A stretch of DNA of 64,000 nt from contig DASVDQ010000089.1 in the NCBI GenBank assembly GCA_036381035.1, forward strand, positions 1-64,000. The letters are read 5' to 3'. Both the position numbers and the translations under genes were made by a program. Position 1 is the first letter of the stretch, and the number at the start of each line of letters is the position of its first letter. Of the stretch, positions 40,941 through 51,488 are shown piece by piece. The stretch comes from Trueperaceae bacterium (GTDB taxonomy: Bacteria; Deinococcota; Deinococci; Deinococcales; Trueperaceae). The notes beneath the pieces were generated by a model. That model was not told the DNA's origin. It saw nothing but the letters and a program-made list of their open reading frames with translations, and made no database searches.

Positions 40941-42101
40941 TCAGCCCAGCGGCCCCCGCGGCTGCACGAGGCGCTCGAACTCGCGCTCCTCCTCGATCCC
41001 CAGCCCGCCGCGCTGCTGCGTGACCATGAGCCGGAACTCGTGCGGGGAGGTGGCCGTGAACGTCGCGTCCTCCAGCGTGATGCGCCCCTGCAGGTAGAGC
41101 TCGACCAGGTGCTGGTCGAACGTCTGCATCCCGCGCAGGTTGTCCTGCATGAGCGCCTCCTTGATCAGGGGCGTCTTCTCCTCGTCCTTGATGTAGTCGC
41201 GGATCAGGGGCGTGTTCACCAGCACCTCGACCGCCAGCGCGCGCCCGGGACCGTCGGCGCGCGGCAGCAGGCGCTGGCTGAGGATGCCGAGGAGCGAGTC
41301 GGCGAGCAGGATGCGGATCTGGTCGCGCTCGTGCGGCGGGAAGAAGTCGATGATGCGGTTGACGGTGCGTATCGCGTCGAGCGTGTGCAGCGTGCTGAAG
41401 ACGAGGTGGCCGGTCTGGGCCGCGGACAGCGCGGCCTCGACGGTCTCCTTGTCGCGCATCTCGCCGACCATGATCACGTCGGGGTCCTGGCGCATCGCGT
41501 ACTTCAGCGCCCCCACGAAGTCGGACGTGTCCAGGCCGATCTCGCGCTGCACGACGAGGCTCTTCTGGTTGCGGTGGAGGATCTCGATGGGGTCCTCGAT
41601 CGTGATGACGTTCTTCGCGAAGCGGCGGTTGATGAAGTCGATCATCGCCGCCAGCGTCGTCGTCTTGCCCGACCCGGTGGGGCCGGTGACGAGCACGAGG
41701 CCGCGCGGCTGGCTCGCCAGCTCGGTGACGACGGCGTTGGGGAGGCCGAGCGCCTCGAAGCTGGGGATCGCGTCGCGGATCACGCGCATGACGATGCCCA
41801 CCGAACCGCGCTGCCTGAGCACGTTGCAGCGGAAGCGGGCGATGTTGGGGATGTTGAAGGCGAAGTCGATCTCGTGCCTGTGCCTGAACAGGTCGCGCTG
41901 CGACTCGGTCATCATGGCCAGCGCGATCTGCTCGGTCTGCTCCGGCGTGAGCGGTGGCACCCCCTCGTAGGGCTGCAGCTCGCCGTCGATGCGCGTGTGC
42001 GGCGGCGCTCCCGCCTGCAGGTGGATGTCGGATGCGCCGCGCGCGACCATGGTCTTCAGCAGGTCGGCGATGCGCACGCCGCGTGAGGGTGCGTCACTCA
42101 T
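40941..42101 (-). CDS. pilT: Type IV pilus retraction ATPase PilT
   Basis: Hexameric ATPase powering pilus retraction for twitching and DNA uptake. 386 residues: N-terminal PAS-like domain with GASDIHLQAGAPP, Walker A GPTGSGKTTT (about 134-143), Asp box ITIEDPIE, Walker B DPDVIMVGEMRD and His box LVFSTLHT. The C-terminal segment TPLIKEALMQDN stands where PilT has AIRNLIRE, so retraction specificity is likely but PilU-like activity is possible. No other pilus gene is nearby. A minus-strand TAGACT lies 9 nt before the ATG. Confidence 0.93.
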   Translation of the reverse strand: MSDAPSRGVRIADLLKTMVARGASDIHLQAGAPPHTRIDGELQPYEGVPPLTPEQTEQIALAMMTESQRDLFRHRHEIDFAFNIPNIARFRCNVLRQRGSVGIVMRVIRDAIPSFEALGLPNAVVTELASQPRGLVLVTGPTGSGKTTTLAAMIDFINRRFAKNVITIEDPIEILHRNQKSLVVQREIGLDTSDFVGALKYAMRQDPDVIMVGEMRDKETVEAALSAAQTGHLVFSTLHTLDAIRTVNRIIDFFPPHERDQIRILLADSLLGILSQRLLPRADGPGRALAVEVLVNTPLIRDYIKDEEKTPLIKEALMQDNLRGMQTFDQHLVELYLQGRITLEDATFTATSPHEFRLMVTQQRGGLGIEEEREFERLVQPRGPLG

Positions 42102-42242: not shown

Positions 42243-43025
42243 CTAGAGGATCTTCGAGAGGAACGCGCGCGTCCTCTGCTCGCGCGGGTTCTGGAAGAAG
42301 TGCTCGGGCGTGCCGACCTCGACGATCTGGCCGGCGTCCATGAACACGACGCGGTCGCCGACCTCGCGAGCGAAGCCCATCTCGTGCGTCACGACGATCA
42401 TCGTCATGCCCTCCTTGGCCAGCGCGACCATGACGTCGAGGACCTCGCCGATCACCTCGGGGTCCAGCGCCGAGGTGGGCTCGTCGAACAGCATCACCTT
42501 CGGCCCCATCGTCAGGGACCGTGCGATGGCGACGCGCTGCTGCTGGCCGCCCGAGAGCTGGCCGGGGTACTTGCGGGCCTGCTCGGGGATGCCCACCTTC
42601 TCGAGGTAGAACATCGCCCGCTCCTCGGCCTCGCTCCTCTTCCACTTGCGGACCCTGATGGGCGCGAGCGTGATGTTCTCGAGCACCGTGAGGTGCGGGA
42701 AGAGGTTGAACTGCTGGAACACCATGCCGGTCTCGCGGCGGATGCGGTCGATGGCCCTGACGTCGTCGGTGAGCTCGACCCCGTCGACGACGATGCGGCC
42801 CTCCTGGTGGTCCTCGAGCCTGTTGATACAGCGGATCAGCGTCGACTTCCCGGAGCCGGACGGCCCGATGACCACCACGACCTCGCCCTTGTTCACCGAC
42901 ATGTTGATGTCGCGCAGGACGTGGAAGTCACCGAACCACTTGTTGAGGCCCTCGATCTCGATGATCCTCTCGCCCCCAGGCGGGGCGTCGGCCCTGACGA
43001 CGTTGCTGGCGACGGCGTCGCTCAT
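42243..43025 (-). CDS. aapP: Polar amino-acid ABC transporter ATPase (AapP/GlnQ)
   Basis: ATPase subunit energising amino-acid uptake. 260 residues with Walker [10 protein letters not shown] (about 54-62), Q-loop [16 protein letters not shown], signature [15 protein letters not shown] and Walker [15 protein letters not shown]. The first 20 residues are a family-typical extension. Last gene of the operon binding protein - permease Q - permease M - ATPase. GAGAGGAA precedes the ATG by 4-5 nt. Confidence 0.95.
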
Positions 43026-43077: not shown

Positions 43078-44292
43078 TCACCTGACGCCCACGCCCAGCT
43101 GGGTCTCGAGCTGCCGCGAGGCCGCGCTCATGCGGTAGGCGAAGAACCAGTAGACGACGGCCAGGAACAGCGACAGCTCCAGGCGGATGCCGCCCGGCAC
43201 GAGCAGCGAGGCCGGCTGGTTCGCGACCACGTCGGCGACGTTGAAGAAGTCGAACAGGCCGACGATGAACACCAGCGACGTGTCCTTGAACAGGCCGATC
43301 GCCTGACCGACGATCGCCGGTATCACCGCCCGCAGCGCCTGCGGCAGGACGATGAGGAGCGTCGTCTGCCAGCCGGAGAGCCCCAGCGCCCGCGCCGCCT
43401 CGACCTGGCCGCGCGGCACCGCCTGCAGCCCGCCGCGCACGTTCTCGGCCATGTAGGCGGCGCTGAAGAGCGTGACGGCGACCATCGACCGCGCGAGGGC
43501 GCTGATGCTGTCCGGGTCCGAGAGCCCCAGGAGCAGCGGCACGAGGAGCGAGGCGATGAACAGCCAGGTGATGAGCGGCGCGCCGCGCACGACCTCGATG
43601 AACGCGGTGCAGGCGACCTTGATGACGGGGAGGTCGCTGCGTCGGCCCAGCGCCAGCAGGATGCCGAGCGGGAAGCTGACGACGATGCCCACCACCGACA
43701 GCACCAGGGTGAGCAGGAAGCCGCCCCACAGGCGCGTGCTCACGCGCACGAGCGGGCCGTCCTCGAAGACGCCGTAGAGGAGCAGGAAGGCGACGACGAC
43801 CGACGCCCCCCACAGCCAGGGGAGGAGGCGCCGCACGCTGGGGACCACGGTCCCGAGGCCGAGGCCCGCCATGCCGGCCAGCGCCACGGCCAGCCAGCCG
43901 AAGCGCACCGACGGCCAGAAGACCAGGCCGACGACGGCGAGCGCGCCGGCGGCGTACATGAACCACCTGAACACGCCCCTGACGATCAGGCTCTCGTACT
44001 TGTCGCCCGCGGCGCCGATGCCGAGCAGGAACATGACGAGGGCGACCATCGTGAAGGGGCGCCACAGCAGATGGGTCGGGAACCGGTAGACGGCGAAGAG
44101 CTTGAGGTTGTTCCAGACCTGCTCCCAGTGCGCCCCGGTGAAGACCCAGGTCAGGAGGGAGTAGAGGGCCCACACGAGCAGGGCGCCCCCGACGAGCGTC
44201 ACGATCGTGTCGGCGATCCCGCCGAACAGGTTCCGGCGGGCCCAGGCCACGGGACCCGTCTGCCTGATGGGGGGCTTCCTGGCCTCGATCAC
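43078..44292 (-). CDS. aapM: Amino-acid ABC transporter permease (AapM-like)
   Basis: Permease of the HAAT/PAAT class, 404 residues. An N-terminal extension has several helices (about 27-175), as in AapM, followed by the core with [13 protein letters not shown] and the EAA coupling loop [27 protein letters not shown] (in two parts) and [17 protein letters not shown]. It forms a heterodimer with AapQ. Separated by 5 nt from the upstream aapQ gene. Confidence 0.93.
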
Positions 44293-44297
44293 CTAGC

Positions 44298-46127
44298 TCA
44301 CCTCTCCACCAGCGCCATGCGGGCGTTGACGATGTTCAGGACCAGGGCGAAGAGCAGGCTGATGGTCAGGTAGGCGGCGATGATCATCAGCGTGACGGGC
44401 ACCGTCGCCCCGGTCTGGTTCGCGATGATGATGCTGATCGCGAACAGCTCCGAGTAGGCGGCCAGCGGCGCCAGTGAGCTGTTCTTGGTGAGGTTGAGGA
44501 ACTGGCTGATGAGCGGCGGGAGGATCACCCGCATGGCCTGCGGGAAGATCACGAAGCGGAAGGCCTGGGAGTCGGAGAGCCCCAGCGCCTTGGCGGCCTC
44601 GCGCTGCCCGTTCGGCACCGCCAGCAGGCCCGCCCGCACGATCTCAGCGATGAACGAGGCGGTGTAGACGACCAGGGCGATGAGCAGCGCCAGGTAGTTC
44701 GTCGACAGCCTGACGCCGCCGTCGTAGTTCGAGATCGGGATCGTGGGCTTCGACCACACGAGCGGGCGGCTCGTCTGGATCGTGAACTCCGCCTGCAGCG
44801 GCTCCTCCTCGTCCTCGCCTCCGCCCGCGGCCGCGGGCGGCGCGAAGAGCTGCGCCGGCGAGACGTTCGCCCCCCGGGACTCGCTGGCCGCGAAGGTCGT
44901 GGCGAACCGCGGGATCCGGGCCTCGCCGTTGCGGTTGGCGACCAGGGTGCGCTCGAAGCCGGTGAAGCTGAGCCTGACGGCGGCGCTGAAGCCGCGGGGC
45001 GAGGGCGCGTCCGGGTCGAGCTCCTCCCCCTGGTCCCAGGCGCCGTCGCCGTCTCGGTCGCGGTAGACGACGCCGCGCGACGGGAACTGGAAGAAGTGGA
45101 TGGCGAGGTCGCTCTCCGCCGCCGCCTCCGGGTCGGCGAAGGTCACCTCCACCTCCTCGAACTCGGACTCCTGGAACGGCGGGAAGTAGAACCGGCCGTA
45201 CACGTAGCGGCGCGACTCGACGAGGTTCTGCGTCTGCACCTCGAGCCCGCCCTCGGCGACGCGCGCAGTGACGGCCGCGAACGGGATGAAGGGCTCGAGG
45301 AACTGCTTGACGCCGTCGCCGTTGAGGTCGCGGAAGACGGTGACGACGCCAGAGGTCTCGCGGAACGCCGTGGCCGCGCCCGACGGCAAGGACCCCTTGC
45401 CGACCAGGAGGTAGCCGGCCACCGCGACGACGAGCGCCGCGAGCAGGCCAGGGCCGAACGCGTTGCCGGGGCGGTCGGCGAGCCTGAGCTGGCGCCGCCT
45501 GAGCCACCAGACCGCGGCGCCAATGGCCACGGCGGCCACCAGGTACGGCACCCAGGCCCCGAAGTGGTAGCTGGGGTATGGCCAGGGGAGCGCCACGCCC
45601 TGGTTGCTGAAGAGCGCGCCGCCGGGGAGCCTGACGGCGTTGAGGATCCGCGGCGGCAGCGGCGTGAGGAAGGCCGTGTACCAGAAGATGATCTGCACCG
45701 CCAGCGGCGTGTTCCGCAGCGTCTCGACGTAGACGGTCGCGAAGCCGCGCATGAGGAAGTTGCGCGACAGGCGCATCACGCCGATGACGACGCCGAGCAC
45801 CGTCGCGAACGCGACGCCGACGAGGGCGACCTTGAGCGTGTTGAGCACGCCGATGAGGAACGCCCGCCCGTAGCTGTTCTCCCCCGTGTAGCGGATAGGC
45901 GTCTCGGCGAGCGGGATGCCGGCGCGCTGGTCGAGGAAGCCGAAGTCGCTCGGCAGGTTCGCGCTCCGCAGCGCGGTCGTGACGTTGTGGTAGACCACGT
46001 ACGCCGCCGCCACCAGGACGACGGCGAACACGACCTGCGCCAGCACGCCGATCGTCCTGACGTTCCTGTAGAAGGGGATCCTCTGCTGGGACCCGAGTGC
46101 GGTGCGTTGGATCGTCTCTGCGCTCAT
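44298..46127 (-). CDS. aapQ: Amino-acid ABC transporter permease (AapQ-like) with EF-hand insert
   Basis: 609 residues, about 200 longer than usual AapQ. Core motifs are normal: YVETLRNTPLAVQIIFWYTAF (in parts; about 132-152), the EAA loop AGLLAVPNGQREAAKALGLS (about 499-518) and LTKNSSLAPLAAYSEL. Between a membrane helix at about 226-243 and the next core helix at about 476 lies an insert of some 215 residues on the extracytoplasmic side. It holds two perfect 12-residue EF-hand loops, DLNGDGVKQFLE (267-278) and DRDGDGAWDQGE (357-368), each followed by beta-rich sequence, resembling Ca-binding SdrD/Cna B-type domains. The insert is in frame and uses the same codon bias as the core. Confidence 0.92.
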   Translation of the reverse strand: MSAETIQRTALGSQQRIPFYRNVRTIGVLAQVVFAVVLVAAAYVVYHNVTTALRSANLPSDFGFLDQRAGIPLAETPIRYTGENSYGRAFLIGVLNTLKVALVGVAFATVLGVVIGVMRLSRNFLMRGFATVYVETLRNTPLAVQIIFWYTAFLTPLPPRILNAVRLPGGALFSNQGVALPWPYPSYHFGAWVPYLVAAVAIGAAVWWLRRRQLRLADRPGNAFGPGLLAALVVAVAGYLLVGKGSLPSGAATAFRETSGVVTVFRDLNGDGVKQFLEPFIPFAAVTARVAEGGLEVQTQNLVESRRYVYGRFYFPPFQESEFEEVEVTFADPEAAAESDLAIHFFQFPSRGVVYRDRDGDGAWDQGEELDPDAPSPRGFSAAVRLSFTGFERTLVANRNGEARIPRFATTFAASESRGANVSPAQLFAPPAAAGGGEDEEEPLQAEFTIQTSRPLVWSKPTIPISNYDGGVRLSTNYLALLIALVVYTASFIAEIVRAGLLAVPNGQREAAKALGLSDSQAFRFVIFPQAMRVILPPLISQFLNLTKNSSLAPLAAYSELFAISIIIANQTGATVPVTLMIIAAYLTISLLFALVLNIVNARMALVER

Positions 46128-46276: not shown

Positions 46277-47290
46277 CTACCGGAAGGGCGGGGCGAACAG
46301 CAGACCACCCTCGGTGTAGAGCGAGTTGAGGCCGCGCGGGATGTCGAACGGGGTGTCGGGGCCGAGGTTCCTGTTGTAGATCTCCTCGTAGTTGCCGACC
46401 TGGCGGATCGCCTGGAGCATGCCGTCGGCCGGGATGCCGAAGTCGGAGACGTTTGTGCCCTCGACGCCGAGCATGCGCCGCACGTCGGGGATCGTCGTGG
46501 TGGCGGCGACCTCCTCGACGTTGTCGGCGGTGATGCCGTACTCCTCCGCCGTGAACAGCGCGAAGACTACCCACTTGACGACGTCGAAGAGGCGCTGCTC
46601 GCCGTTGAGTACGGCCGGGCCGAGCGGCTCCTTCGAGATCGTCGCGTCGAGGATCACGTGATCGGCGGGGTTCTGCAGCGTGATGAGGCGGCTGGCCAGG
46701 CCCGACTTGTCGGTCGTCCAGGCGTCGCAGGCGCCCTGGTCGTAGGCCGCGGTGAGCTGGTCGGCGTTCTCGTAGATCACGGGCTCGAAGCTGATGTTGA
46801 GGGCGCCGAGCACGTCGTTGAGGTTCAGCTCCGTGGTGGTGCCTGACTGTACGCAGATCCGGCGGCCCTCGAGGTCCTGCAGGGTCGTGATGCCGGAGTC
46901 GCGGCGCGCCATGAAGCCCTGGCCGTCGTAGAAGGTCGTGGGGGCGAACTCGAGGCCGACGCTGGTGTCGCGCGAGCTGGTCCACGTGGTGTTGCGGATC
47001 AGCACGTCGACCTCGCCGGTCTGCACGGCCGTGAAGCGCTCCTGGGCCGAGAGGGCGCGGAACTGGACGGCGTTGGCGTCGCCGAGGATCGCGGCGGCGA
47101 TGGCGCGGCAGAAGTCGACGTCGAAGCCCTCGAACTCGCCCTGGGCGTTGATCGTGCCGAAGCCGGGGAGCTGGTCGTTGACGCCGCAGACGAGGTTGCC
47201 GCGGGCGATGATGTCGTCGAGCTTGTCGGCGTAGGCGGCACCGCCGAAGACGAGAGCCGCCACTAGGATGGTGAATACGAGTCTGCGCAT
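46277..47290 (-). CDS. aapJ: Periplasmic amino-acid-binding protein (AapJ/BztA type)
   Basis: Captures polar L-amino acids for the importer. 337 residues with signal peptide (about 1-21, ending GGAAYAD). The family pattern is clear: IIARGNLVCGVNDQLPGFGT, FEGFDVDFCRAIAAAI, the substrate-contact stretch LIRNTTWTSSRDTSVGLEF and ICVQSGTTTELNL. ATG 47290 is chosen because the signal peptide starts there and AGAAGGGA lies 8 nt upstream; an earlier in-frame start (47350) would overlap the promoter. Confidence 0.94.
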   Translation of the reverse strand: MRRLVFTILVAALVFGGAAYADKLDDIIARGNLVCGVNDQLPGFGTINAQGEFEGFDVDFCRAIAAAILGDANAVQFRALSAQERFTAVQTGEVDVLIRNTTWTSSRDTSVGLEFAPTTFYDGQGFMARRDSGITTLQDLEGRRICVQSGTTTELNLNDVLGALNISFEPVIYENADQLTAAYDQGACDAWTTDKSGLASRLITLQNPADHVILDATISKEPLGPAVLNGEQRLFDVVKWVVFALFTAEEYGITADNVEEVAATTTIPDVRRMLGVEGTNVSDFGIPADGMLQAIRQVGNYEEIYNRNLGPDTPFDIPRGLNSLYTEGGLLFAPPFR

Positions 47291-47573: not shown

Positions 47574-48245
47574 TCAGGCGGACGGCGCGGCCGCGGCGGA
47601 CGCCTCCGCCTGCTTCTCCGCCTCCTCCTTGGCCTCGAGCTTGGCCTTGATGCGCTTGAGGACCGTGGTCTCCTCCAGCGCGCGCTGGTCGAGGACGCTG
47701 CGGATGTACCTGATCTCGTAGTTGATGCCGGGGATCACGAGCTGCTCGAGCGCGTTGACCCGGCGGTTCGTCTTCTTGATCTCCTCGCCTATGCGCCGCA
47801 GGCGCGTCTCCGTGGCCGCCACGTTGATGATGGCCTCGACGAGCTTGCGGAACTGCGAGGCCGCCTCGAGCGTCGTGGCGCCCGCCCCGACCGGCGAGAA
47901 GGGCAGCTTGTCGTCGAACCTCGGCGCCTGCACCTGCGGGACCTTGACCCCGAAGATGTTCTCCATCCTCAGCTCGACCTCGACCTGCTGCGACTCGGCC
48001 AGAGCCAGGCTGGAGACGTTCTCCGGCCCGTCCCAGGCGTTGGCGAGGAACAGCGCGAAGTAGGCCTCGCGGCTCGCCTGGGCTAGCTGCCGGCGCGCCT
48101 CCAGGGAGGACCGCACCAGGGCGAAGAACTCGCCGACCAGCGCGTCGCGCTTGCGCTTGAGGAGGTCCGCCCCGCGCACGGCCAGCTTGACCTGGTCGCG
48201 CCGCTGCAGGAGGTTCGAGCGGGTGGGGGCGATGCTCTCGGCCAC
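47574..48245 (-). CDS. atpD: V-type ATPase subunit D
   Basis: Central rotor-stalk subunit of the V/A-type ATPase. 223 residues, typical. N-terminus IAPTRSNLLQRRDQVKLAVRGADLLKRKRDALV is the family hallmark (shown in parts), with long N- and C-terminal helices forming the coiled-coil axle; the C-terminus is Ala/Lys/Glu-rich. Last gene of the operon, 12 nt after atpB. Confidence 0.96.
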   Translation of the reverse strand: MAESIAPTRSNLLQRRDQVKLAVRGADLLKRKRDALVGEFFALVRSSLEARRQLAQASREAYFALFLANAWDGPENVSSLALAESQQVEVELRMENIFGVKVPQVQAPRFDDKLPFSPVGAGATTLEAASQFRKLVEAIINVAATETRLRRIGEEIKKTNRRVNALEQLVIPGINYEIRYIRSVLDQRALEETTVLKRIKAKLEAKEEAEKQAEASAAAAPSA

Positions 48246-48257
48246 GTCAGCCTCCGA

Positions 48258-49682
48258 TCAGAGCCGGTCCTGCTTCGCCGCGCCCCAGAGCTCGTCCATC
48301 TTGGCGCCGTAGTACTTGTCGATCTGGTCGTTCGAGAGCCTGGTGAGCTCGCTCTTGGGCAGCATCGAGAGGATCGACCACGCGATGGTCAGGGAGTCCT
48401 CGATCGACCTGTTCTCCGAGCCCTGGTTGATGAAGCGCTTCTCGAACTCGTCGGCGAACTTCAGGTAGAGCTTGTCGGTCTCGGACAGCGCGTCCTCGCC
48501 CGTGATGGCCACGAGGCGCCGCAGGTCGAGGCCGTTGGCGTACGCGGCCTGGAGCTGGTCGGACACGTTCTTGTGGTCCTTGCGGGTCTTGCCCTCGCCG
48601 ATGCCGTTGTTCATGAGGCGCGAGAGCGACGGGCCCGGGTTGATGGGCGGGTAGATGCCCTTGTTGTGCAGCGCGCGCGCCATGTAGATCTGACCCTCGG
48701 TGATGTAGCCCGTGAGGTCGGGGATCGGGTGCGTCACGTCGTCGTCGGGCATCGACAGGATCGGGATCTGCGTGACCGAGCCCGGCAGGCCCTCCACCAC
48801 GCCGGCGCGCTCGTAGATGCTCGCCAGGTCCGTGTACATGTAGCCGGGGTAGCCGCGGCGTCCGGGGATCTCCTCGCGGGCGCCGCCGATCTCGCGCAGC
48901 GCCTCGCAGTAGTTCGTCATGTCGGTGAGGATGACCAGCACGTGGAAGCCGTGCTCGAACGCCAGGTACTCGGCGGCGGTCAGCGCCATCCGCGGCGTGA
49001 GGAGGCGCTCGACGGCGGGGTCGTCGGCCTTGTTGAGGAACAGCACCGACCGCGCCAGCGCGCCCGTGCGCTCGAACTCCTGCGTGAAGAACGTCAGCTC
49101 GCGTTGGGTGACGCCCATCGCCGCGAACACGACGGCGAACTCGCTGTCCTCGCCGATGACCGTCGCCTGGCGGGCGATCTGCGCGGCGAGCTCGTTCGCG
49201 GGCAGGCCGGAGCCGGAGAAGATCGGCAGCTTCTGGCCGCGCACCAGGCTGATCAGCGTGTCGATCGTGCTGATGCCGGTCTGGATGAACTCCTCTGGCT
49301 TGCGGCGCGACACGGGGTTGATCGGCGCCCCGCTGATGGGCAGGCGCTTGTCGGCGACGACCGGCGGGAGGCCGTCGATCGGGTTGCCGGAGCCGTCGAA
49401 GCGGCGGCCGATCATCTCGCGGGCCACGCCGAGCCGCGCGACGTTCTCGACGAGGCTGACCGTGGTGCTCGAGAGGTCGATGCCCGAGGTCTCCTCGAAG
49501 ACCTGCAGCACCGTGTACTCCTTCGAGACCTCGATGACCTGGCCGCCGCGCTCGCGTCCCTGCCCGTCGACGATGCGGACGATCGCGTTGTAGCTCAGGT
49601 CCGGCGCGTTCTGGAGGTACAGCAGGGGGCCAGAGACGTAGCTGACCTCCGAGTACTCCTTCTTCAGTAGGTTGCTGCTCAT
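48258..49682 (-). CDS. atpB: V-type ATPase subunit B
   Basis: Non-catalytic nucleotide-site subunit of the A3B3 head. 474 residues. Contains [20 protein letters not shown] where the catalytic subunit has its P-loop, [14 protein letters not shown] and [20 protein letters not shown]. Follows atpA after 66 nt. Confidence 0.97.
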
Positions 49683-49748
49683 CTGTCTCCTAGCTCCTCG
49701 CGGCGGGGCGCGCCTCGAGCTCCTCGCTGAGGTCCGGGGCCACCGCGC

Positions 49749-51488
<1,740 letters not shown>

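Follow-up and report, generated by a model that had tools for sequence, protein, structure and literature searches.

A Trueperaceae-specific insert with putative calcium loops, predicted to lie on the outer face of an AapQ-like amino-acid permease

The window analysed here, a stretch of 64,000 nucleotides from a Trueperaceae bacterium, carries an aapJQMP-type amino-acid importer operon on the reverse strand, on which all features of the window given below lie. The central gene is a single open frame (44298..46127) that encodes an AapQ-like ABC permease of 609 aa. It is accompanied by open reading frames for an AapJ-like binding protein (46277..47290, with 47290 as the likely start), which is the docking partner proposed below, an AapM-like partner permease of 404 aa that has no insert (43078..44292) and an AapP-like ATPase of 260 aa (42243..43025). 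Directly upstream of the operon on the same strand are V-type ATPase subunit genes (D, B, A; 47574-51488), and a gene for a PilT-like twitching ATPase follows it, also on this strand (40941-42101). The only Pfam match on the window AapQ is PF00528 (BPD_transp_1), which scores 67.3 bits against a cut-off of 26.4 and comes in two pieces on either side of the insert. The protein also has the EAA coupling loop (EAAKALGLS.., residues 510-531 approximately), and its NCBIfam matches are amino-acid permeases, none of which covers the insert. PDB entry 4yms, a solved amino-acid permease, matches residues 479-604 in sequence, and the full-length AapQ model matches it in fold (E 3e-5). The permease domain, the EAA loop and the presence of AapJ, AapM and AapP homologues in the operon bear out the AapQ identity given in a first-pass annotation of this DNA. 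It may be noted that AapJ has a cleavable signal peptide and no lipobox, which makes it a soluble protein, and that the operon with a soluble AapJ is conserved among the relatives.

Operon order, the extra helix pair, the EAA loop and a conserved NLTKNSSL stretch are all shared with the AapQ/BztB-type permeases of AapJQMP systems, from which the Trueperaceae AapQ differs by 211 additional residues; the AapQ proteins compared here from outside the Trueperaceae clade are all without them. The unusual length was already noticed in the first-pass annotation (609 residues where about 400 is normal), and the insert-less AapQ of this order and of Pseudomonadota indeed measure 373-429 aa (one open frame, L085, reads 470 aa and falls outside this range, but it begins within the AapJ frame). 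To place the junctions we compared 11 insert-less AapQ from this order, Azospirillum, Rhizobium, Rhodoferax, Photobacterium and Allomeiothermus. In these proteins the second extra helix leads directly into ..GQPLEYGVPIRGNFGVNGG.., while the window AapQ has 211 residues at that junction (K244-R454; 44766..45398 by the alignment junctions and the translation) and only then continues with ..PLVWSKPTIPISNYDGG... The earlier span of 44750-45398 therefore had the right start, but its end at 44750 overshoots by about 5 residues: the PLVWSKPTIP found past the insert end is homologous in the alignment to PLEYGVPIRG of insert-less AapQ. The helix preceding the insert (residues 224-242, 45402..45458) runs from inside to outside in the full-length model. 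The helix after it (residues 476-503, 44619..44702), supported by the PF00528 match and by the same model, runs from outside to inside and leads to the EAA loop. In this class of transporters the EAA loop touches the ATPase, on the cytoplasmic side, which places the insert on the outer face, between two membrane helices, as had been claimed. The Arg-rich inner end ahead of the pre-insert helix (cytoplasmic loop RRRQLRLADR) agrees with this orientation. Omp85 is present in 20 of 21 insert-bearing genomes, therefore "outside" means the periplasm.

An AF2 model of the insert, built with 13 sequences, has a mean pLDDT of 79.5, with 109 of 224 residues at 90 or above. Its strands are identical in the full-length model, of which the membrane part is of low confidence (pLDDT 65.8). 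Only one stretch is predicted to be disordered, a variable Ala/Gly/acidic linker (residues 413-440, 44808..44891) that is absent in three relatives. The remainder can be divided into a first half with a strand, loop 1 and further strands (residues 257-348, 45084..45359) and a second half with a strand, loop 2, a strand and a DRDG hairpin (residues 348-412, 44892..45086). The region is thus predicted to be ordered and beta-rich with a confident core, in agreement with the beta domain proposed earlier and contrary to the disordered stretch that had been named as its counter-case. The resemblance to SdrD/Cna-type surface modules, which the first-pass annotation had read from the openings of the two loop regions, is borne out in sequence. 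SdrD_B (PF17210) is the Pfam family matched most often by the insert (by 10 of 27 members, with 8.5e-4 as the best E), yet all these matches are below the cut-off; the best member listed singly scores 19.3 bits where 29.7 would be required. In L012 and L030 it is the first half that this profile matches, in L018 the second. Also the layout of the insert, GxVYxDxNxDGxxDxGE ... V.L ... DRDGxxR.P.F, is that of SdrD_B/Cna_B modules. With hhalign both halves align to SdrD_B-like repeats of the window genome and of a related genome at a probability of 93-96%; the aligned columns are short, however, and the E-values refer to a one-entry database. In contrast to these surface modules, the insert lies in a transporter loop and not in a stalk. 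Moreover, though its beta strands are modelled at high pLDDT, a Foldseek search against PDB and BFVD gave nothing below E 0.05 (TM-scores of about 0.1-0.2), and the SdrD_B fold, a prealbumin-like beta-sandwich, is for this reason unconfirmed. PDB profile searches with the insert returned weak matches only, the best being to the helical repeats of protein A (E 0.0037, first half), which we take as chance. On these sequence comparisons the insert appears weakly SdrD_B-like, in two halves. The window genome also encodes two large proteins with SdrD_B over the Pfam cut-off, L068 (G000:C31) and L069 (G000:C47); in L069 a possible beta-barrel region is followed by Cna/SdrD-like repeats.

Each half holds one candidate calcium loop, DLNGDGVKQFLE (loop 1, residues 267-278, 45294..45329) and DRDGDGAWDQGE (loop 2, residues 357-368, 45024..45059), and the spacing between them is exactly 90 residues. 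Shuffled versions of the insert contained at least one such loop in 0.04% of cases, and among 200,000 of them not one had two. A third conserved motif, NRNGEARIPRF (residues 398-408, 44904..44936; family form DRDGQxRxPxF), follows in the second half and contains the invariant G401 and R404. In the alignment of 27 sequences loop 2 has Asp at position 1 and Glu at position 12 in all 27, N/D at position 3 and N/D/S at position 5 also in all 27, and Gly at position 6 in 24; it conforms to the Dx[DN]xDG calcium-loop pattern including the acidic position 12. The conserved Asp positions, of which the absence had been set as a test against the earlier reading, are therefore kept in loop 2, as are those of Asn and Glu. 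The first Asp of loop 1 is present in 20 of 27 relatives and lost in 7: all six members of genus g7 have the loop deleted, and L013 retains a degenerate form. These cases lie at two separate places in the tree, so that loop 1 was probably lost twice. The first-pass annotation spoke of two perfect EF-hand calcium loops, and of this description Dx[DN]xDG with Glu12 in both loops of the window protein, 90 residues apart, holds good, but two loops are not a constant design of the family, as loop 2 alone is constant. The EF-hand label we reject. A beta strand flanks each loop on both sides in the AF2 model, and this strand-loop-strand context is not that of an EF-hand. At position 8, where the EF-hand pattern wants I/L/V, loop 1 of the window protein has K and loop 2 has W (mostly basic and aromatic or Leu, respectively, across the 27 sequences). 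In the Pfam search no EF-hand profile was matched on the window AapQ, and only one of the 27 members touches one, at E 7.7. Calcium binding by Dx[DN]xDG loops is described for many contexts other than EF-hands, mostly extracellular (PMC3123361), and a text search of that paper found no permease among them. The AapQ loops resemble these sites in the six-residue motif with a later acidic ligand, in being flanked by strands and in their extracytoplasmic location. As modelled, they represent the Dx[DN]xDG site in its strand-loop-strand form and would bind Ca2+.

A profile of the insert matched 29 of 111 Deinococcota genomes, that is 27 Trueperaceae and two weak local matches elsewhere. It is present in 27 of 39 Trueperaceae genomes, in one copy each and always within aapQ, and a profile of the second half alone found the same 27. 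It was not found in the remaining 12, among which those searched with the whole protein gave no full-length AapQ match, nor in the Deinococcota of the 111 genomes outside Trueperaceae. All Trueperaceae genomes that have this AapQ carry the insert. The two matches outside AapQ (E 3e-4 and 6e-4) are of a local motif only, L066 being a surface protein with SdrD_B-like repeats and L067 comprising pilin-like proteins with a DRNGNRxxDxGEE hairpin. The latter locus (L067:267-1797), from another family of the order, consists of two adjacent pilin-like (FimT/GspH-type) ORFs in which the hairpin, here DRNGNRxYDxGEE, mimics loop 2, probably as a local resemblance. One narrow pattern, based on the helix adjoining the insert (helix plus insert) and run over 84,980 species genomes, gave 12 loci, all in Trueperaceae or in Deinococci/Deinococcota MAGs that have no family name. 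None of 2,238 plasmid records with AapQ-like permeases covers the insert; phyla beyond Deinococcota were sampled by these plasmids and the one narrow pattern only. On the sequences compared, the insert is real, conserved and Trueperaceae-specific. One genome, G004, has a second AapQ of 416 residues without the insert (L083, G004:C20:133446-134594), situated in a second aapJQM operon. It groups in the core tree with the insert-less proteins of other families, so this operon was possibly acquired by transfer. In this tree a bootstrap of 100 supports the split between the insert-less proteins and all 27 AapQ that bear the insert; with a Pseudomonadota outgroup a single gain of the insert is likely, the whole domain never having been lost afterwards. 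In six close pairs the dN/dS of the insert is 0.08-0.25, which indicates purifying selection; relative to the remainder of the protein this amounts to a factor of about 1.0-1.9. The residues E304, P349, D357, E368, G379, G401, R404, S459 and P464 are invariant in the 27-row alignment.

Accessory periplasmic domains in the permeases of ABC importers are rarely documented, MalF P2 being the textbook case. Like the AapQ insert, MalF P2 of the E. coli maltose importer is a beta-rich domain (about 180 residues) that sits in a periplasmic loop of a single permease subunit, and both systems are type I importers with a soluble binding protein. MalF belongs to another permease family, however, and its insertion lies ahead of the core instead of within it. 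No P2 model was among the Pfam matches of the 27 members down to E 10, a level at which HMMER filters may drop very weak ones, and to our knowledge MalF P2 has no Dx[DN]xDG loops. MalF-P2 (residues 91-271) contacts MalE directly (PMC3150292). The best explanation we can offer, to which we give about an even chance, is that the AapQ insert is a calcium-stabilised periplasmic accessory domain that guides the docking of AapJ. It would be a beta-sandwich module related to the SdrD_B/Cna_B-type surface modules, in which loop 2, with loop 1 optional, would be constitutively occupied by one structural Ca2+ at the calcium levels of the periplasm. With less certainty, it may serve AapJ as a rigid platform for docking or guidance, in the way of the unrelated MalF P2, because it projects from the face where the soluble AapJ must dock. 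This position, the solubility of AapJ and the MalF-P2 precedent make docking of the binding protein, one of the roles suggested in the first-pass annotation, the best reading of the analysis. A mirror-tree comparison of the insert with AapJ looked positive at first (partial r 0.45, within a range of 0.35-0.47), but the controls, fast sites in AapM and in the core of AapQ, gave equal or larger values. The signal is therefore not specific and lends docking no support, and we dropped it as evidence. The AapJ alignment had no obvious insert-specific feature. A lipoprotein as against a soluble AapJ does not explain the insert either, since an ordinary signal peptide is found in operons with and without it.

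A tentative second reading is that the domain stabilises or scaffolds the transporter, by assisting assembly with AapM or by protecting the gate on the periplasmic side against high salt, alkali or heat; it would then make no contact with AapJ, and calcium would have a structural role. That the domain is fixed in one family across many habitats, acts in cis inside one permease, evolves faster than the core yet under constraint and can dispense with loop 1 would all fit such a role. Against it, a folded domain of 211 residues with the invariant charged E304 and R404 suggests a specific partner, and insert-less AapQ of the same order manage without such a domain. Anchoring of the transporter to peptidoglycan, an S-layer or some other part of the envelope, the role that SdrD/Cna-type modules have in surface proteins, is improbable. 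The SdrD_B-like profile matches and the two other proteins of the genome with SdrD_B over the cut-off speak for this, but the insert protein has no sorting signal, peptidoglycan-binding motif or tandem stalk, and B-type modules are usually spacers rather than binders; the anchoring suggested earlier thus finds no support, as neither repeat nor sorting signal is present. Still more doubtful is a calcium sensor or gate in which Ca2+ in both loops switches the channel or the binding of AapJ, even though most members have two loops and loop 2 is fully conserved. Seven sequences, six of them from a single genus, have lost loop 1 with the operon and the domain kept, and the loops sit in a rigid strand-loop-strand context instead of paired EF-hands; both argue against a two-site switch. 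Extracellular Dx[DN]xDG sites, to judge from PMC3123361, would mostly be structural, and the calcium-dependent gating proposed in the first-pass annotation is left unsupported. We attach the same slender probability to a calcium-tuned Trueperaceae importer in which a periplasmic domain of new beta fold sets AapJ docking in a calcium-dependent way. Least likely of all is a neutral decoration kept without function, for which the faster evolution of the insert could be cited, since the domain was never lost in 27 orthologues, its dN/dS is well below 1 and ligand, Gly, Arg and Glu positions are invariant.

A permease with a periplasmic accessory domain is already known as a general type, of which the Trueperaceae AapQ is a further form. 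The design of its insert is apparently undescribed in the open-access literature, in which we found no precedent, as the first-pass annotation had supposed. If the docking explanation is true, a MalF P2-like accessory domain was invented independently in another importer family and another phylum, was built from a calcium-loop module of the surface-protein type and became fixed in one whole bacterial family. The insert-bearing and insert-less AapQ present together in G004 provide a clean natural comparison for the role of the domain in docking and transport. Among the AapJ proteins, only that of G002 (L090:1424-2527) contains a stretch of about 17 residues duplicated in tandem and in frame (LDATISKKPLGPAGPPT-LDATTSKEPLGPA).
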